From: Gammaproteobacteria bacterium
GTDB lineage: Bacteria > Pseudomonadota > Gammaproteobacteria > JACQPQ01
NCBI GenBank assembly: GCA_016207405.1
Contig: JACQPQ010000035.1
Location: forward strand, 1 to 36,305
Length of the DNA: 36,305 nt
Direction of reading: 5' to 3'
Part shown: piece after piece, positions 25,111 through 33,837 of the stretch
Numbering within the stretch: the stretch's first letter is position 1
How the letters are laid out: every line of letters begins with the position of its first letter
Program-made: the position numbers and the translations under genes
Notes under the pieces: generated by a model
Told to the model about the DNA's origin: nothing
Database searches by the model: none
Seen by the model: the letters and a program-made list of their open reading frames with translations, nothing else

Positions 25111-25341
25111 AATCCCTCACTGATGGGTGGGTTACTGTGTATTTTCTGCTGCCTGCTGCTCGATAAAAGTCCCCTGCACTCCTAGAATTTTTCAGGCCGC
25201 GCACAGTCGATGTCCTATCGCAAGTAGCGTAAAAATGCATCCTGCATTTTTACCTGAAAAATCACCGTCGCTCGGGAACGCTCGCAAAGGCAGCAGAAAA
25301 TACACAGTAACCCACCTTTCCCACCATTTTAGTGAGGCATT
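25111..25341. repeat. Palindromic repeat element, long copy (copy B)
   Basis: This 231-bp nested palindrome has ends AATCCCTCACT and inverted AGTGAGGCATT, then arms GGTTACTGTGTATTTTCTGC and complement. Inside sits a second palindrome with CTCCTAGAATTTTTCAGG, the TAAAAATGCATCCTGCATT hairpin and CCTGAAAAAT. The outer part is shared with copy A (4523-4673) and the inner part with copy C (8862-9055). Its right end provides the TAA stop of the ferredoxin gene (25340-25342). It has no protein-coding capacity of note. Confidence 0.87.
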
Positions 25342-25729
25342 ACGTCAATTCTAAAGACGCCTTGGCTCGTTCCAAAACTTCTCGAATCACCTCCTTTTTT
25401 GAAGTTCTCCCAGCTTTTAGGCGTGCTTGCTCTTCTTCTTCCGCCTGATCCCTCATTCGCTGTCTTCTGAAGCTAGCCCGTTCGCGAGCCTGCTGTGCCT
25501 TTTTATGAGGATTTTCAAAAGTGGAATAAGGAACCATCTGAATACAATCGACTGGGCAAGGAGGTAAGCACAATTGACAGCCAATGCACGCATCTTTGAT
25601 CACGGTATGCATGGCTTGGAAAGCGCCGATAATCGCATTCACGGGACAGGCTTCATAACATTTAGCGCAGCCAATACAAGCAGATTCTTCTATGCAGGCT
25701 ACCTCACTGAATTTCTTTGGTTTACTCAA
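25340..25729 (-). CDS. RnfB-like ferredoxin with two [4Fe-4S] clusters, short form
   Basis: The 129-aa protein has two C-x2-C-x2-C-x3-C motifs ([16 protein letters not shown] and [16 protein letters not shown]), like the ferredoxin half of RnfB/RsxB. A long, charged helical tail follows ([16 protein letters not shown]). Full RnfB has an N-terminal membrane helix and another iron-sulfur domain; both are absent. Only a TTG start (25729) without a Shine-Dalgarno sequence is available. A degenerate palindromic repeat begins 19 bp upstream. The gene may therefore be a truncated RnfB-like protein or a free ferredoxin. No other rnf gene is present. The stop codon falls within repeat copy B. Confidence 0.78.
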
Positions 25730-26632: not shown

Positions 26633-27454
26633 ATGAGGAAAAACTTCATTGCGTCGGAAGGTGGGGTACACGGAAAAGCGTTCCTGGGAAGACCCCAACT
26701 TCAGAATGAAGCGGCACAACTACTGGAGGAGGGAACCTCCTCGGCAACAGAGAAAGATTCACCCAAAGTAATCCGGCTTCCGGGCCCCGTTCCGGACTAT
26801 CTACAAAAACACTACTGGTGGGCTTATGTGCACCCGCGTGCAGTACGCTTCTGGGATCGACAATGGCTCATTAACCTCATTCTTTTTGGTAATTTTATTC
26901 GCTTGAGAGATCAGGCTCTCGCTGAGTTTTGGCCGTATGCCTACGGGCGGACGCTTCAGGTAGCTTGCGTCTACGGTGATTTTACAGTCAAACTGGCCGA
27001 ACGCATTGCACCGGGTGGCATTCTAGATGTGGTCGACGTACTCCCCATTCAAATTCAAAACTTACGCCGTAAGCTATCCAACCCAACACCTGTCCGATTG
27101 CACTATGGAGATTCAACAGGGCTTGATTTTGATGATGCAACATTCGACCAAGTCATCGTTTTCTTCGTGCTTCACGAGCAACCCGTGGGGGTTCGCGAAA
27201 GAACGGTCGAGGAAGCCGTACGCGTCTTAAAACCAGGCGGGAAAATCGTTTTTGTAGAATACCATCGTCCTGTACGCTGGCATCCTTTACACCTCGTTTT
27301 TTTAGAGCCAATCCTCCGTGTGCTTGAGCCTTTCTCGCCCGATCTATGGAATCACCCGATCACAGAATGGCTACCCAAAAACCGCACACCCACAGCAATT
27401 AGAAAGCAACTATACTTTGGAAACTTGTATCAGAAAGTTGTAGTTACTTATTAA
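26633..27454 (+). CDS. rquA: Rhodoquinone biosynthesis methyltransferase-like protein RquA
   Basis: RquA converts ubiquinone to rhodoquinone, the low-potential quinone used in anaerobic respiration (for example fumarate reduction). The 273-aa protein is a class I SAM-methyltransferase-like fold. RquA hallmarks seen are VPDYLQKHYWWAYVHPRAVR (residues 53-72), the altered SAM loop LQVACVYGDFT (108-118) in place of the UbiE GxGxG, VVDVLPIQ and FVLHEQP. The C-terminal YHRPVRWHPL, DLWNH and FGNLYQKVVV are also present. The first 45 or so residues are unusual and less conserved. The ribosome binding site is AAGGAAA. It stands alone on the plus strand, converging on the molybdoenzyme operon, behind two palindromes. 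rquA is known for sporadic distribution and lateral transfer. Confidence 0.92.
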   Translation: MRKNFIASEGGVHGKAFLGRPQLQNEAAQLLEEGTSSATEKDSPKVIRLPGPVPDYLQKHYWWAYVHPRAVRFWDRQWLINLILFGNFIRLRDQALAEFWPYAYGRTLQVACVYGDFTVKLAERIAPGGILDVVDVLPIQIQNLRRKLSNPTPVRLHYGDSTGLDFDDATFDQVIVFFVLHEQPVGVRERTVEEAVRVLKPGGKIVFVEYHRPVRWHPLHLVFLEPILRVLEPFSPDLWNHPITEWLPKNRTPTAIRKQLYFGNLYQKVVVTY

Positions 27455-27523
27455 GAGGTAATCCACCTTGTCAAAACCGGTGGACCGCTCGCAAAAAAAC
27501 GCCTCGCACAAGTCCACCCTACA

Positions 27524-28777
27524 TTAAAACTGAGACGCCAGCACAAGTGTGAACAGGTTATCGCTTGGATCACTCGGCTCACCAGAAACATGACGATCGG
27601 ATTCTTTATTCCAATCATACCCTGTTTTGATAAGTGTGTTTTCGCTCCAGCGATAGCCTGCTCCAAGCGAATAGCGTTGATATCGATTAGCCGTTATACC
27701 ATTTAAAGAAGCCGTGATATCATTCTCTAAATCTACCACGCTGTATCGTGCTGCTGCATACCATTTGGAAGTTAGGTTATAAGTACCTTCTAAGAAACCA
27801 TAATTTCCGTCTCGGTCTCTCGCTCCTGTTGCCTCGTCTGAAAAATGTCCCAAAGAAAGCCGGATAAAAGCCTTACTGTCTGAATAAGCAGGAGGTTCTA
27901 AAGCTTTTTTGCCTTTGCCAAAGTCGTAGCGAAGGAAGGCTTCCCATGCACGTCTCGTCCAATTAGACGCACCCGTTGGCGGTGTAGCTACCCCCGCAAA
28001 AGAAAGTTCAGAGCTTGCTGTGCCTAGATCTCCAGAGGCATAGTAACTGAAGGACGCGTAGACTGGCTCGAACGGCGTGTGGTGTAACTTTCCAAACCAA
28101 GCTTTTTCTTTGCTATTGTCAGAACCTGTTCCTGTATTGCCATCGCTGACAGAAAGAACCCAACCTAAAGGTTTTAAGCCCAGTGGGTTTAATGTTATAC
28201 TCCCCGCTAATTCTAGTCCCTCGTCGGATACCCCTGAATTCACAGCCGAGTTAGAGGGCCCCACACTCTCTACCAAATTATTAGACCAAGTCTCTTCCCC
28301 AAACCCTAATTTAAATCGTCCCAATCGACCGCTCAAACTGAACGGGGTGCTTTTTAAGAAAGGAAGAAAATCTTTGGACTGTAAATAGAGGTAATCCACC
28401 TTATTAAAAGTGGCATTGTTTAAATCCATTCTCATCACAATGGAGTTTTTTTCATCTGCTTGAAACACAAGCTGGAATTTGGCTTCTGGCACATCGAAAG
28501 TGTCATGTGCTTTTGCACCATCTTGTCCTGCATCAAAAAGACCTGCGGCAAATCTTCCTTTCATTTTTAACTTGGATAGCGTGTTCAGAAGATCGACTCG
28601 GAGAGAAGATTTTTGAACAGAGTCTTTTTGAGTTGCTTCCAATTTTTCAATGCGGGCCAATAATTCTGTGCGAACCGCTTGTGTTTCGGCAGTATCGCCA
28701 CTTTCTGCTTGAATGCAGGGACTCATCCCTATTACTGCAATACAGAATAGTTTTGCGCATGTGATCCTGGGTGTCAT
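27524..28777 (-). CDS. Outer-membrane porin-like beta-barrel protein
   Basis: The 417-aa protein has a signal peptide (about residues 1-24, cleaved near IQAES) and a short coiled-coil-like segment (RTELLARIEKLEATQKDSVQ). A long region follows with alternating aromatic and polar residues typical of beta-strands (GRLGRFKLGFGEE, YAAARYSVVDLEND, YQRYSLGAGYRW), and it ends in SQF, a terminal Phe as in outer-membrane barrels. It is similar in style to phosphate-selective/OprO-P-like porins, but I cannot name the family. AAGGAGG precedes the start. It is the last gene of the molybdoenzyme operon, 36 bp after the chaperone gene, suggesting uptake of the oxyanion or other substrate. Confidence 0.78.
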   Translation of the reverse strand: MTPRITCAKLFCIAVIGMSPCIQAESGDTAETQAVRTELLARIEKLEATQKDSVQKSSLRVDLLNTLSKLKMKGRFAAGLFDAGQDGAKAHDTFDVPEAKFQLVFQADEKNSIVMRMDLNNATFNKVDYLYLQSKDFLPFLKSTPFSLSGRLGRFKLGFGEETWSNNLVESVGPSNSAVNSGVSDEGLELAGSITLNPLGLKPLGWVLSVSDGNTGTGSDNSKEKAWFGKLHHTPFEPVYASFSYYASGDLGTASSELSFAGVATPPTGASNWTRRAWEAFLRYDFGKGKKALEPPAYSDSKAFIRLSLGHFSDEATGARDRDGNYGFLEGTYNLTSKWYAAARYSVVDLENDITASLNGITANRYQRYSLGAGYRWSENTLIKTGYDWNKESDRHVSGEPSDPSDNLFTLVLASQF

Positions 28778-28813
28778 TTGAGTATCCTCCTTGAAATCAA
28801 AAATTACATTGTT

Positions 28814-29437
28814 TCATTCAGTCGAAATGCTATCCAGAAGATAACGACCGACTTTTACATAAAATGGGGAAGTGGCATTGTTGGCCAACTTTTTCCCAAA
28901 AACAGGAACCCACTGCCCAAAAAACCGTAACAAAAATTCCTCGTACAGTGTTTCCCATGCCTTTGCATCCAACATTTCTTTCGCTTCTACTGCATGCACC
29001 CACAGGAGGCACACATGCGCAAGGAATGCGAGCTCTATAGAAATATGGTCGGGCGCAGCAGGAGTATGATTTTGAGGTTCAAACTTTGCTTCTGCATACC
29101 ACCGCTTGAGTTCAGAAACACAAGGTCCTCCCAAATACCCCTGAAATTCTCCTCCTGCAAATGACAACCCACACTCCAGATCTCCCGGGCCAGAAGGCTC
29201 TAATCGAATGAGATCTGTGTAGACGGACTGATAAGGCAAAATCTGATCAGGCCCTGGCACAGAAAATAACCGCGTAAATTCCACCTGCAAAGTTTCTACC
29301 CCATACCCAGGTTTAATCAGTCCAAGTGCCTCGACATCCTCTAAAATTTTCGCATCCGGGGGAGATGCCAAAAGCTTGCTTAGGCAACTAAAACAGCCTG
29401 CTCTTTCTTTCAAGCTTTGTAAATTTTGACACAACAT
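28814..29437 (-). CDS. TorD/DmsD-family molybdoenzyme chaperone
   Basis: TorD-family proteins bind the Tat signal and the apo-form of a molybdoenzyme to delay export until the cofactor is inserted. The 207-aa helical protein has the family segments LQVEFTRLFSVPGP, LPYQSVYTD and the signature PDHISIELAFLAHV. It overlaps the catalytic-subunit gene by 28 bp and clearly serves it. The start ATG at 29437 is the first in-frame one. Because family members are specific to their partner, it is not called torD. Confidence 0.85.
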   Translation of the reverse strand: MLCQNLQSLKERAGCFSCLSKLLASPPDAKILEDVEALGLIKPGYGVETLQVEFTRLFSVPGPDQILPYQSVYTDLIRLEPSGPGDLECGLSFAGGEFQGYLGGPCVSELKRWYAEAKFEPQNHTPAAPDHISIELAFLAHVCLLWVHAVEAKEMLDAKAWETLYEEFLLRFFGQWVPVFGKKLANNATSPFYVKVGRYLLDSISTE

Positions 29438-31878
29438 TCTTTGTGCAGAGCCTGCCCGCTTAAGGGATCGGCTTTTGTTGGCCTTAAGTCCCCATCAAAA
29501 CACCCCCGCCCTTTTGCAGTCTTCCCCAGTGCCCAGTGACCAAAACCATGCTGCGAACCGACTACCTCTGGATGAATGCCTTCTGTCAGTCTAAGGATAG
29601 CTTTCATTTTTCCGTACTTGGATTCCACCCAAACTACCTCCTCATCCTTCAACCCTAATTTTGCCGCTATCTTAGTGTTCATCTTGAGGAGATTCGTCGA
29701 TTTAATCTCGACAAGCCACGCATTATTTTGCGTTCTCGTATGCGTATGCGAAGCCTCCTTCCAATTGATAAGATAAAAAGGATATTCTGAGTCTGGTTGC
29801 CAGCTTCTTGGCCTATAAACCGGAAGGGGATCGACAGGCTTTCCTTCGGCATCCTTCTTGTCTCGAAAAGCCGCATTGTAGAATTCCACTTTTCCAGAAG
29901 ACGTCTTAAAGCCCACAACCGCCTTACCCTCCTTCAGAAATCCGATTGGCTTATCGCGTGATCCATCCTTTTTCTTGGAAAAGATAAGCGTTCCCTCAAT
30001 AAGAGCCTCTCGCAGTTTTTCTTCTGGAAGAGGAGCTTTAAATTTTTCATACTGTGTCCCTTTGTCGCTTACCCAGGTGGCTCCAGGTAAAGCTTTGAGT
30101 TGTTCCAAAGTCATTTTAGGATCGCCTTCGGAAAGCTCGCGAGAAAGCCATTCCTCATACCACGCTTTTTTATCAGAAACGGGCTTGCCAGAAACGCGCC
30201 CAATAAGAAACACTTCTTTGCCTTCCACGTCTTTAAGACCAAGCCGGCGCCCTAGCTCTGCTATAAATTCATATTCTGCCGGCTGACCAAAAAGAGGAGG
30301 CACCACCGGCTGACGAAGACCTATCACAGGCCAAGTCACCCAGTGTGCATTTAAATCGTAACGTTCAAAATAAGTGGTCCCGGGAATGACGAGATCTGCC
30401 ATCTCCGCGGTTTCAGACAGGTAGATGTCATTGACGACCAAAAATTCCAGACTCTTTAAAGCGGCTTCTACTGTCTTTGTGCCCGGAACAGACATCATTA
30501 AGTTCTGAAAGAACACCATGCCGATCTTAGGTTTGTAAGGGCCAGTTCCTTCCGCCATACGAGTAAATGACTCACAGTAGACACCCGACTTATGCCCAAA
30601 AGGATAAGATTTTACCCCATCGAAGCGCTCCATTTTGACTGTCTTGCTGGCGAGCGCATCGGGCGCTACCTCCATGTGTTTGCCCTCCCCTTTTTTGGGA
30701 ATAACCATGGTTCCTGATTTGTCATAAGCACCCACGAGCGCATTGAGGCATGCAATCGCCCGCCCGCCTTGCACACCATTGGCATGCTGGCCAGGCCCAG
30801 ACCATACGTCGGTTAAAGAGGGCTTCGTTGTTGCAAACTCCCGCGCAATTCTCTCGATGGTTGCGGCAGGCACAGAAGTAATCGTTTGACCCCATTCAGG
30901 CGTTTTATCCTTGACTTCATTTGCAAATTCATCAAAACCGACCGTCCATTCTTTGATAAAGTCTGCATCATATAGCTTGTCGCGAATGATGACATGCGCC
31001 ATGGCAAGTGCCATCCCCCCATCTGTAGAGGGACGTATGGGAACCCATTCATCCGCCTTATTTGCGGTATAAGAGAAATTAGGATCAACCACAACCAGCT
31101 TAGCTCCATTCTCTCTGGCGCGAGTCATGATGCGCGGAAGGTGAGCCCACTTTGTAGCAGATAAAGGATTCCAACCAAACAGCAAAATGTATTTTGAAGC
31201 AATAGCATCCATGAGTGGCCGCTCATCCCCCATGACCATTTTGAAAGAGGCCTTACGGGCCGTATCACACAGATTAGAGTGGTTAGAATAATTAGGCGTT
31301 CCATACAGTTTACAAAAATCTCCTTGTGGGTGAGTAAAGGAGTGATCTTCGGAAAACCACAGTAACTTATGGGCTTCGCCCTGATCTCGAAGCATCCTTA
31401 GCCGGCTCACGATTTCAGTGTAAGCGTCTTCCCAAGAGATCTCTTTCCATTTTGGGTCAATTCCTATGCCTTTTTCAGGGTTTGTACGCCTTAAAGGATT
31501 TTTAATTCTGTCTGGATCGTAGAGCGTCATAATCCCCGCATTGCCCTTTGGGCACATCACTGCGCCTTCTTTGTTTCCATTAGCGAAAAAGTCAGTAGAA
31601 ATATTAGAAAAGCCATTGGGGTTGTGTGAGTTAGGCCGAACAGAAACCACTCGACCATCCACAACATAACAAGTAATACCAGTTTGCCCTCCGCACTGAT
31701 TGCAACAAGAGTGTATGGTCTTGGCCTGCTCGTAGTTCTTCCCCGTTCGGATAGCCGCCAGTGCTTTTTGACCCAAACCGGGAACAAAAGGCGGCAGTGC
31801 AAGTGCTGCAGCACCCAGCCCAGCATATTTTAAAAATACTCGGCGTTCATCACTGGAATGAAAATTTATGTTATTCAT
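29410..31878 (-). CDS. Tat-exported molybdopterin oxidoreductase, Psr/Phs/Arr-like catalytic subunit
   Basis: This is an 822-aa periplasmic member of the DMSO reductase (CISM) superfamily. It opens with a twin-arginine signal (DERRVFLKYAGLGAAALAL). Cysteines at 58, 59, 62, 70 and 109 should hold the FS0 [4Fe-4S] cluster, though with altered spacing. Cys204 (HSNLCDTARKAS) is the probable Mo ligand, placing it with polysulfide, thiosulfate and arsenate reductases rather than with Ser or Asp enzymes. YDPDRIKNPLRRTNP and ADEWVPIRPSTDGGMALAMA are near those of arsenate/thiosulfate reductase-type subunits. The substrate cannot be assigned. It follows the iron-sulfur subunit and a palindrome; AAGGAGA lies 7 nt before ATG. 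No membrane subunit is encoded nearby. Confidence 0.88.
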   Translation of the reverse strand: MNNINFHSSDERRVFLKYAGLGAAALALPPFVPGLGQKALAAIRTGKNYEQAKTIHSCCNQCGGQTGITCYVVDGRVVSVRPNSHNPNGFSNISTDFFANGNKEGAVMCPKGNAGIMTLYDPDRIKNPLRRTNPEKGIGIDPKWKEISWEDAYTEIVSRLRMLRDQGEAHKLLWFSEDHSFTHPQGDFCKLYGTPNYSNHSNLCDTARKASFKMVMGDERPLMDAIASKYILLFGWNPLSATKWAHLPRIMTRARENGAKLVVVDPNFSYTANKADEWVPIRPSTDGGMALAMAHVIIRDKLYDADFIKEWTVGFDEFANEVKDKTPEWGQTITSVPAATIERIAREFATTKPSLTDVWSGPGQHANGVQGGRAIACLNALVGAYDKSGTMVIPKKGEGKHMEVAPDALASKTVKMERFDGVKSYPFGHKSGVYCESFTRMAEGTGPYKPKIGMVFFQNLMMSVPGTKTVEAALKSLEFLVVNDIYLSETAEMADLVIPGTTYFERYDLNAHWVTWPVIGLRQPVVPPLFGQPAEYEFIAELGRRLGLKDVEGKEVFLIGRVSGKPVSDKKAWYEEWLSRELSEGDPKMTLEQLKALPGATWVSDKGTQYEKFKAPLPEEKLREALIEGTLIFSKKKDGSRDKPIGFLKEGKAVVGFKTSSGKVEFYNAAFRDKKDAEGKPVDPLPVYRPRSWQPDSEYPFYLINWKEASHTHTRTQNNAWLVEIKSTNLLKMNTKIAAKLGLKDEEVVWVESKYGKMKAILRLTEGIHPEVVGSQHGFGHWALGKTAKGRGCFDGDLRPTKADPLSGQALHKECCVKIYKA

Positions 31879-31899
31879 AAGTCAATCTCCTTTTACGAT

Positions 31900-31974
31900 C
31901 TGTCATGGAAGCAGAAAGCTGGCATCCAGAATTGAGATCTTAATACTGGATGCCAGCCTTCGCTGGCATGACAG
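31900..31974. repeat. 75-bp palindromic repeat between iron-sulfur and catalytic subunit genes
   Basis: Outer arms CTGTCATG (31900-31907) and CATGACAG (31967-31974) enclose GCTGGCATCCAG (31918-31929) and CTGGATGCCAGC (31946-31957). It is of the common TGTCATGCCAGC...GGCATCCAG type known in many proteobacteria. Being intercistronic and 21 bp before the catalytic start codon, it could slow RNA decay or change expression ratios of the two subunits. Confidence 0.85.
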
Positions 31975-32040
31975 TGAGGGAGATCTCAGCCGCGCGCCTT
32001 ACAAGGTTTTCCATTTTTAAATGTGCTGAATAGATACCCC

Positions 32041-32871
32041 TTATGTCAGGTAATACACATTGGGCCCTGTGCCCTCTTCTTCCTTAAGACGCATATGCTT
32101 ACGAGTTTTAAGAAGTTCCTGTAATCCCTCACCATGGGCGAGACACTTTCCATTTGGATCGCCTAAGTCTCCAAAATGAATGGCTTTTCCCATGCAAGTT
32201 TTTACACAAGCAGGAAGATCTATATAGTCGCCGTTTTTATCCTGCTTGTGCACACAAAAAGTACATTTCCGCGCTTTACCTACCCAAACTCTTTTCCCCG
32301 GTTTTTCCATCAACCCCATTTCAGGAGAAGCGACTTCGTTCCAGACGCCCGTGCCCTCATGATATTTTTCCCCTTCATCAAAAATAGGCACTTTATAAGG
32401 ACAAGCCTTAACACACGCTTTTGTCCCTCTACACACATTCGGATCAATAAAAACAATACCATCCTCTCGTTTTTTAATTGCTTTGTAAGGACAGACTTCA
32501 AGACAAACAGGTTTATCACAATGCTGACAAGGTCGCGGAAACCATTGAAGTTTTACATGAGGATATTCGCCCGTTTCCTCCTCAAGAACCGGATTATAGG
32601 ACATGCCTGGAGGAGTTTTGTTTTCCTGCTTACAAGCCACCACACACGCTCGACACACCACACAGCGCTCTAGGTCGATGACCATACCCAGCTTCTTTTT
32701 TTGAACGGATTGAGGCTTGCTGACCGAAGTGCCCGTTGCAGCAAGCGTTACCACTCCTGCTACCACTGTTGCAGCAGACTGAAAAAATTTTCGACGGGAA
32801 GGAATAGGATCTAAGGGGCTTGGAAGTTCACTCTCCTTTTTATCAGGTCCATGGAGTTTGTCTGATACCAT
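32041..32871 (-). CDS. Iron-sulfur electron-transfer subunit of the molybdoenzyme, with Tat signal
   Basis: The 276-aa protein carries four iron-sulfur centres (DmsB/PsrB/ArrB-type) to pass electrons to the catalytic subunit. A twin-arginine signal (PSRRKFFQSAATVVAGVVTL, about residues 23-42) is present in addition to that of the catalytic subunit. Cluster motifs are CVVCRACVVAC, CQHCDKPVCLEVC, CRGTKACVKAC and CTFC...CVKTC. In the third motif the second Cys is Thr, so that centre has only three Cys. A [3Fe-4S] cluster, as with the Trp of nitrate reductase NarH, is likely. It is first in the operon with AAGGAGG before ATG. The missing NrfD/PsrC-like membrane subunit resembles the two-gene arrAB arrangement. 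Confidence 0.9.
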   Translation of the reverse strand: MVSDKLHGPDKKESELPSPLDPIPSRRKFFQSAATVVAGVVTLAATGTSVSKPQSVQKKKLGMVIDLERCVVCRACVVACKQENKTPPGMSYNPVLEEETGEYPHVKLQWFPRPCQHCDKPVCLEVCPYKAIKKREDGIVFIDPNVCRGTKACVKACPYKVPIFDEGEKYHEGTGVWNEVASPEMGLMEKPGKRVWVGKARKCTFCVHKQDKNGDYIDLPACVKTCMGKAIHFGDLGDPNGKCLAHGEGLQELLKTRKHMRLKEEEGTGPNVYYLT

Positions 32872-33029: not shown

Positions 33030-33065
33030 GGGGGATCTTTGACTCTTTTTCTCCAATCGCTCAGA

Positions 33066-33464
33066 ATGAATCATATGATTACCTCAAAACTGGCAAAAAA
33101 AAAAGTTAAAAAAAAAACTGTTTTTGCAAAAAAACCAGTAACCCAAAAGCTATTGAAAAAAATAAAAAATCAAATTGTAAAGGCAGTACATCCTGAAAAA
33201 ATTATTTTATTTGGTTCTTGGGCAAGAAGAGAAGCAACTAAGGACTCCGACCTCGATCTGATGGTAATTGAACGAAAAGCCTTTAACAAAAAACATTCTA
33301 AGCGGCGGAACTTGGCTAAGTTATGGTTAACCCTTGCCGATGTGCCAATACCCACAGATATTGTGTTATATAGCCAAGAAGAAGTAGAGCATTGGAAACA
33401 CAGCATTAACCATTTAGTTTTCAGAGCTCTCAAAGAGGGCAAGGTATTGTATGAAAAACCTTGA
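33066..33464 (+). CDS. MNT-type minimal nucleotidyltransferase (antitoxin of HEPN pair)
   Basis: The protein has a Lys-rich N-terminus and the nucleotidyltransferase signature GSWARREATKDSDLDLMV, an exact GS-x10-DxD pattern, then a later DIVLYS strand with the third acidic residue. In MNT/HEPN toxin-antitoxin systems the MNT partner neutralises the HEPN ribonuclease, in studied cases by AMPylation. The start is uncertain: ATG at 33066 (133 aa) or 33075, or TTG at 33039; none has a good ribosome binding site. It overlaps the HEPN gene by 14 bp. It lies within the 79-bp direct repeats. Confidence 0.82.
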   Translation: MNHMITSKLAKKKVKKKTVFAKKPVTQKLLKKIKNQIVKAVHPEKIILFGSWARREATKDSDLDLMVIERKAFNKKHSKRRNLAKLWLTLADVPIPTDIVLYSQEEVEHWKHSINHLVFRALKEGKVLYEKP

Positions 33465-33837
33465 ACACGCTGACATGATTATGAAGCTAGCTTACGAAGA
33501 CTGGAATGCCCTAAAAGGCATGAAGGATACAGAAAGGCTTTTTTCAGATGGAATTTTTGGTTTTCATGCGCAACAAGCTATCGAAAAAGCCTTAAAAGCA
33601 TGGCTTTGTCATTTAGGAAAAGAGTATCCTAAAACGCATGATATCCGTCTACTCTTAATGCTGCTTTCGTCAAGCGGTGAGAAAATTGATTCTTACTGGC
33701 CATTGGTGGAATACAATATTTATGCTGTTCAATCTCGCTATGAATATATAGCAGAAAATGAACCGTTCAAAAGACCGCAAGTGATACAGCAAATAGAACG
33801 CTTACTTAACAAAATAAAGAAGATAATATCTAATTAA
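33451..33837 (+). CDS. HEPN-domain protein (putative ribonuclease toxin)
   Basis: The 128-aa all-helical protein matches the HEPN (PF05168-type) pattern: FGFHAQQAIEKALKAWLCHL, then YPKTHDIRLLLMLL and YNIYAVQSRYEYIAEN. The R-x4-H-x-Y motif of the HepT/DUF86 group is not seen, so it belongs to the other HEPN class. It follows and overlaps the MNT gene, the classic antitoxin-toxin order. The DNA is AT-rich. It ends 21 bp before the right direct repeat. Confidence 0.8.
   Translation: MKNLEHADMIMKLAYEDWNALKGMKDTERLFSDGIFGFHAQQAIEKALKAWLCHLGKEYPKTHDIRLLLMLLSSSGEKIDSYWPLVEYNIYAVQSRYEYIAENEPFKRPQVIQQIERLLNKIKKIISN

Follow-up and report, generated by a model that had tools for sequence, protein, structure and literature searches.

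The window analyzed here is the whole stretch of 36,305 nucleotides that makes up contig C15 of a Gammaproteobacteria bacterium genome (1.45 Mb in 73 contigs, 94% complete). It carries rquA, a rhodoquinone biosynthesis gene encoding 273 aa (26633–27454, plus strand), and a four-gene operon on the minus strand. The 3' ends of rquA and the operon face each other across 69 bp, and for this reason rquA lies outside the operon. The first gene of the operon encodes an iron-sulfur (Fe-S) subunit of 276 aa (32041–32871). It is followed by genes for a catalytic subunit of 822 aa (29410–31878), a TorD/NarJ-like chaperone of 207 aa (28814–29437; PF02613, 69 bits), and an outer-membrane-type barrel-like protein of 417 aa (27524–28777). 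These open reading frames are genuine genes and not chance ones, and a first-pass annotation of the window had their coordinates and convergent arrangement right. Both redox subunits carry their own twin-arginine translocation (Tat) signal (SRRKFF and RRVFLK), and genes for TatC and UbiG are present in the same window. The assignment of rquA in the first-pass annotation also holds, as the protein scores 289 bits with the NCBI RquA equivalog model NF038261 (cut-off 175). The VYGD motif and two Asp positions (VVD, GDS) of RquA are seen among its close homologues.

The catalytic subunit belongs to the Cys-type enzymes that hold molybdenum or tungsten in a bis(pyranopterin guanine dinucleotide) cofactor (Mo/W-bisPGD). 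It carries PF00384 (125 bits) and PF01568 (59 bits) together with a Cys, C204, at the position of the Mo ligand. C204 lines up with the equivalent Cys in PsrA and PhsA, and like C59, C62, and C109 it is invariant across a family of close relatives described below. The motif for the FS0 cluster in this family reads CX2CX3[T/S/C], and 9 of 13 members have Thr or Ser as the third ligand (T66 in the window; codon 31681–31683, minus strand). The third FS0 ligand is also replaced in other lineages of the tree; in other words, the replacement is a family mark but not a unique one. Which known enzyme does this subunit represent? The best-scoring hidden Markov model was PhsA, with 399 bits against a cut-off of 694, and this shortfall together with a separate clade in the tree led to the rejection of a PhsA/PsrA identity. 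ArrA was rejected because of a score of 242 against 1600 bits and a position outside the Arr/Arx clade. Membership in the type II dimethyl sulfoxide (DMSO) reductase family (TIGR03479) was rejected because of a score of 179 against 985 bits and a Cys in place of the Asp ligand. The TtrA model gave 99.6 against 1750 bits. The best sequence match in the PDB was PsrA (2vpw, E 7e-76). AlphaFold models of the barrel-like protein and the catalytic subunit were of low confidence (pLDDT, the predicted local distance difference test, of 53 and 42) and were given no weight, and the same applies to a Foldseek search in which the model of the catalytic subunit matched ArrA and PsrA first.

No orthologue of the catalytic subunit was found in the same class or phylum (Pseudomonadota; sets of 94 and 398 genomes), in which the best matches were 32–40% identical. 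A scan of GTDB species genomes recovered 15 orthologues that were 56–81% identical, all of them from metagenome-assembled genomes (MAGs) and many from groundwater. Their hosts are labeled Acidobacteria, Zixibacteria, Omnitrophota, Cyanobacteria, Calidifonticultor, Goldbacteria, Sumerlaeota, Chloroflexota, and Lentisphaerae, or about nine phyla. Two of the compared loci (labeled L031–L045 here), L037 and L038, are near-identical 14-kb stretches labeled Calidifonticultor (Actinomycetota) and Goldbacteria, respectively, so one label or bin must be wrong. In a maximum-likelihood tree, the family formed one clade (support 100/100, stem 0.82) within an assemblage of PhsA, Arr/Arx, and TtrA-like enzymes and was nested in none of them. 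The window enzyme grouped with those of Acidobacteria L031 and Zixibacteria L032 (100/99), and an alpha-beta pair from Acidobacteria is 77% identical to that of the window. The phylogeny that the first-pass annotation had called for therefore separates the enzyme from the ArrA and PhsA clades; TtrA was represented by a single long-branched TtrA-like row, and the tree held no SrdA or AnrA sequences. In agreement with the first-pass reading, the enzyme falls in the Phs/Psr-Arr/Arx-Ttr assemblage and not in a formate dehydrogenase or DmsA group. These sequence comparisons assign it to a hitherto undescribed family within the sulfur/metalloid-oxyanion part of the Mo-bisPGD superfamily. The literature search turned up no paper with a name for this family; it could be among the PsrA/PhsA-like lineages without names that Wells et al. 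(PMC10100899) report from MAGs. Most simply, the operon was acquired horizontally from a family mostly carrying NrfD, because orthologues are absent from its own class and phylum, its relatives are scattered over distant phyla, and the family forms its own clade in the tree.

The operon had been described in the first-pass annotation as lacking an NrfD/PsrC-like quinol dehydrogenase, and this is the case. Only 162 bp (31879–32040, minus strand) separate the Fe-S and catalytic genes, a spacer too short for a membrane subunit, and the genome gave no match to PF03916 in a search that was positive in 4 of 14 control genomes. A second model, NrfD_2 (PF14589), had zero matches in the genome, but the control was equally silent and this result was not used. 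The lack of NrfD extends to some relatives. In L033–L037, L039–L041, and also L038 (the near-copy of L037), an NrfD gene lies directly before the catalytic gene, at the position of the spacer. In the window, L031, L032, and L043, no gene intervenes between the Fe-S and catalytic genes. The stretches of L044 and L045 end before the NrfD position. Because L043 sits on a different branch of the tree from the window group, there must have been two or more losses of NrfD, or a single loss followed by a regain. The spacer of the window also holds a palindromic element resembling repetitive extragenic palindromic (REP) sequences (CTGGATGCCAGC...GCTGGCATGACA), which occurs as a single copy in the window.

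The absence of NrfD coincides with a change in the Fe-S subunit. This subunit is of the four-cluster beta type of complex iron-sulfur molybdoenzymes (CISM) and aligns with ArrB, PsrB, PcrB, and EbdB. Its best PDB match is ArrB, and its scores lie below the cut-offs of the ArrB (145.5 against 450 bits) and DsrO (144 against 200 bits) models. The third ligand motif reads C147-x2-T150-x2-C153-x3-C157, in which the fourth Cys ligand of the FS4 cluster is replaced by Thr (T150; codon 32422–32424, minus strand). The C-x2-C-x2-C-x3-C motif is intact in all seven tested Fe-S subunits encoded beside NrfD (L033, L034, L035, L037, L039, L040, and L041), whereas its second Cys is gone in all four NrfD-less forms (Thr, Ala, Ile, and Val). 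The association of Cys loss with NrfD absence (4/4 versus 0/7) gives a Fisher p of 0.003, which is not corrected for phylogeny, and it occurs on two separate branches of the tree. These observations bear on whether a membrane subunit exists but was missed, either because the assembly is incomplete or because the NrfD model is too distant. The genome is in 73 contigs and 94% complete, which favors this explanation, but the operon runs uninterrupted on one contig, three other family members also lack NrfD, and the Fe-S subunit has changed in step with the NrfD loss. A missed subunit is therefore very improbable.

Alignment with solved relatives showed that the same FS4 position is replaced in PcrB and EbdB and kept in ArrB and PsrB. 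In NarH, C196, C217, and C223, which form the homologous ligand set, hold a [3Fe-4S] cluster FS4 (PMC5338063), and in nitrite oxidoreductase (NXR) FS4 is close to the heme of the C subunit (PMC8387239). By analogy with these two enzymes, FS4 in the NrfD-less forms is probably [3Fe-4S], and the pattern suggests that loss of the FS4 ligand accompanies a switch from NrfD to a heme or cytochrome partner. The window branch resembles the type II family (PcrAB, EbdABC, NarGH, and NXR) in the replaced second Cys of the third Fe-S motif and in the proposed exchange with heme partners. It differs in its Cys-type catalytic subunit, as the type II enzymes are of the Asp type. Most simply, the loss of the FS4 ligand in the two groups is convergent. 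With PhsABC and PsrABC, the system shares a Cys-ligated Mo-bisPGD alpha subunit, a four-cluster beta subunit, and, in most of the new family, an NrfD-type gamma subunit; the window branch differs in lacking the latter, the FS0 and FS4 ligands are altered, and the clade is separate. With ArrAB and ArxAB, it shares a two-subunit periplasmic form, which is fed by CymA when ArrC is absent (PMC2500031). It differs in that the family lies outside the Arr/Arx clade and that ArrB keeps the FS4 Cys, which the window subunit does not.

How would electrons reach an enzyme without a membrane subunit? The first-pass annotation had expected a separate quinol oxidase or cytochrome, as in Shewanella, in which ArrAB without ArrC is fed by CymA (PMC2500031). 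In agreement with this expectation, the genome encodes a single NapC/NirT quinol dehydrogenase (259 bits, 199 aa, four CXXCH motifs), a tetraheme protein of the kind that a CymA-like donor requires. Its gene lies in an MtrAB-type operon (contig C70:18386–23373; L077:6386–11373) that also encodes an 11-CXXCH DmsE-family cytochrome and an MtrB/PioB barrel, each above its model cut-off. A monoheme protein with an ethylbenzene dehydrogenase (EB_dh) domain, resembling the gamma subunit of that enzyme, is encoded in the same operon. This operon represents a porin-cytochrome conduit for extracellular electron transfer in a genome of only 1.45 Mb. Another NapC/NirT protein, ImoA of the Sideroxydans Mto pathway, oxidizes quinol and can replace CymA (PMC9600427). 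Across the hosts of the family, a genome-wide trade-off between NapC and NrfD was considered and dropped (3/4 versus 1/9, p 0.05), as it was too weak, given the unrelated NrfD genes that most of these hosts carry at other loci. The heme subunit that FS4 faces in type II enzymes has the EB_dh fold, and for this reason the monoheme protein is a candidate docking partner for FS4 in the window enzyme.

The barrel-like protein has no Pfam or NCBIfam match, and a Foldseek search with its low-confidence model, whose C-terminal half is rich in beta-strands and ends in Phe, returned no porin at E<=0.001 and was likewise given no weight. Three Omnitrophota loci (L033, L034, and L035) have relatives of it, 46–57% identical, immediately next to the family's enzyme, so the protein belongs to the enzyme system across phyla. 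Thus, the dedicated porin proposed in the first-pass annotation stands as far as linkage to the enzyme family is concerned, and a role in substrate entry is putative. In L031, L044, and L045, the gene right after the catalytic one encodes a homologue of the chaperone. In Omnitrophota, an ArsB/CitMHS-type permease adjoins the enzyme, but it scores far below all ArsB NCBIfam cut-offs and was therefore not counted as a sign of arsenic. The Omnitrophota locus L034 also encodes a second Mo-bisPGD protein (L034:16365–18422, 685 aa), which looks formate-dehydrogenase-like by eye and adjoins TatC and a MobA homologue.

Together, these findings converge on a model to which a probability of about 0.5 is assigned. 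The operon product would be a soluble, Tat-exported periplasmic alpha-beta molybdoenzyme whose ancestor carried NrfD; in the window branch NrfD would have been lost and FS4, minus its fourth Cys, would probably have become [3Fe-4S]. Quinol would be oxidized by the NapC/NirT tetraheme protein, which would pass electrons to a periplasmic cytochrome, perhaps the neighboring EB_dh-domain protein, and from there they would run through FS4–FS1 and FS0 to Mo. The barrel protein would admit the substrate. Several observations weigh against this model. ArrB uses CymA and yet keeps the FS4 Cys, which shows that a cytochrome can serve as partner without this substitution. The MAG that carries L043, one of the NrfD-less loci, yielded no NapC. 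The NapC gene of the window genome is not on the window's contig, and its operon obviously serves extracellular electron transfer in its own right. RquA was over cut-off in 0 of 15 hosts of the enzyme relatives, which indicates that rhodoquinone is dispensable for the family. In addition, data from MAGs are incomplete.

The direction of electron flow could also be reversed, with an inorganic sulfur or metalloid compound being oxidized and electrons leaving via a [3Fe-4S] FS4 to c-type cytochromes such as those of an MtrAB-type conduit. ArxA, a member of the same assemblage, works oxidatively, the FS4 substitution is found in ethylbenzene dehydrogenase and FS4 of NXR is near a heme, and the genome does have a porin-cytochrome conduit. 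However, PcrB, which belongs to a reductase, has the same substitution, and the NrfD-bearing form of most relatives fits quinol-fed reductases, though NrfD can also accept electrons. The biosynthesis of a low-potential quinone fits reduction as well. An oxidative enzyme is judged fairly unlikely.

Does rhodoquinol feed the enzyme, as the first-pass annotation proposed from the proximity of rquA? The window RquA resembles that of Rhodospirillum rubrum in passing the same equivalog cut-off and differs in an N-terminal extension of ~50 residues before the model start, a comparison made by model and not with the R. rubrum sequence. Within the class, RquA is over cut-off in 15 of 274 genomes. The two closest rquA homologues (55–56% identical) adjoin frdAB (FrdA equivalog, 956 against 854 bits); in these two genomes of one family, rquA lies ~0.8 kb downstream of frdAB (L103 4174–8325 and L104 4645–8785). 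The window genome itself has complex II (SdhA, 806 against 567 bits, plus sdhC and sdhD). Given these neighbors and this gene content, complex II is the ordinary client of rhodoquinol, equal to or better than the molybdoenzyme. It is about as probable as not that rquA serves complex II acting as a fumarate reductase and lies next to the molybdoenzyme by chance, in a hotspot for accessory genes. In its favor, rquA is absent from the hosts of the enzyme relatives and is convergent to the operon, not co-transcribed. The REP-like element is in the same region, and an MNT/HEPN toxin-antitoxin-type pair directly beside the operon (33039–33837), with a GC content of 0.35–0.36 against 0.44 for the window, hints at such a hotspot. 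On the other hand, a single quinol pool can feed complex II and the molybdoenzyme alike, and rquA does move with quinone-linked respiratory operons. In locus L105 (2758–7397), it comes immediately after genes for a DsrO-like protein and DsrP (over cut-off), and the next gene encodes a flavoprotein that weakly matches sulfide:quinone reductase, a possible link between rhodoquinone and sulfur metabolism.

A CymA-like path from ubiquinol to a low-potential oxyanion would be unfavorable. MenD is not over cut-off in the genome (65 against 244 bits; the futalosine route was not searched), so rhodoquinol may be its only low-potential quinol. Rhodoquinol is plausible as the low-potential donor to the enzyme, given that the genome encodes UbiG and RquA and gave no MenD over cut-off. 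The link proposed from proximity is weakly supported on balance: the missing MenD is in its favor, and the relatives' hosts without rquA, the homologues beside frdAB, and the presence of complex II are against it. Elsewhere in the window, a lone RnfB-like two-cluster ferredoxin of 129 aa is encoded at 25340–25729, and no other rnf genes are in the window.

The forms with and without NrfD represent a natural experiment on the change of electron partners in respiratory molybdoenzymes. Loss of the module coincides with loss of an FS4 ligand; elsewhere, such a pattern is known from the branch of perchlorate reductase, ethylbenzene dehydrogenase, and nitrate reductase. The neighboring rquA makes it testable whether rhodoquinol supports respirations other than that of fumarate. 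Nearly all arsenate respirers use menaquinone, and a ubiquinone user cannot respire arsenate (Duval et al., PMC2500031); a rhodoquinone route would for this reason be informative. A broader scenario, doubtful at present, is that a widely transferred family repeatedly swapped NrfD for a cytochrome and lost the fourth FS4 ligand each time. The low-potential quinol made with rquA would then let NapC/NirT drive the enzyme in a ubiquinone-type bacterium without menaquinone, which would amount to a rhodoquinol-dependent respiration of an oxyanion or sulfur compound other than fumarate.

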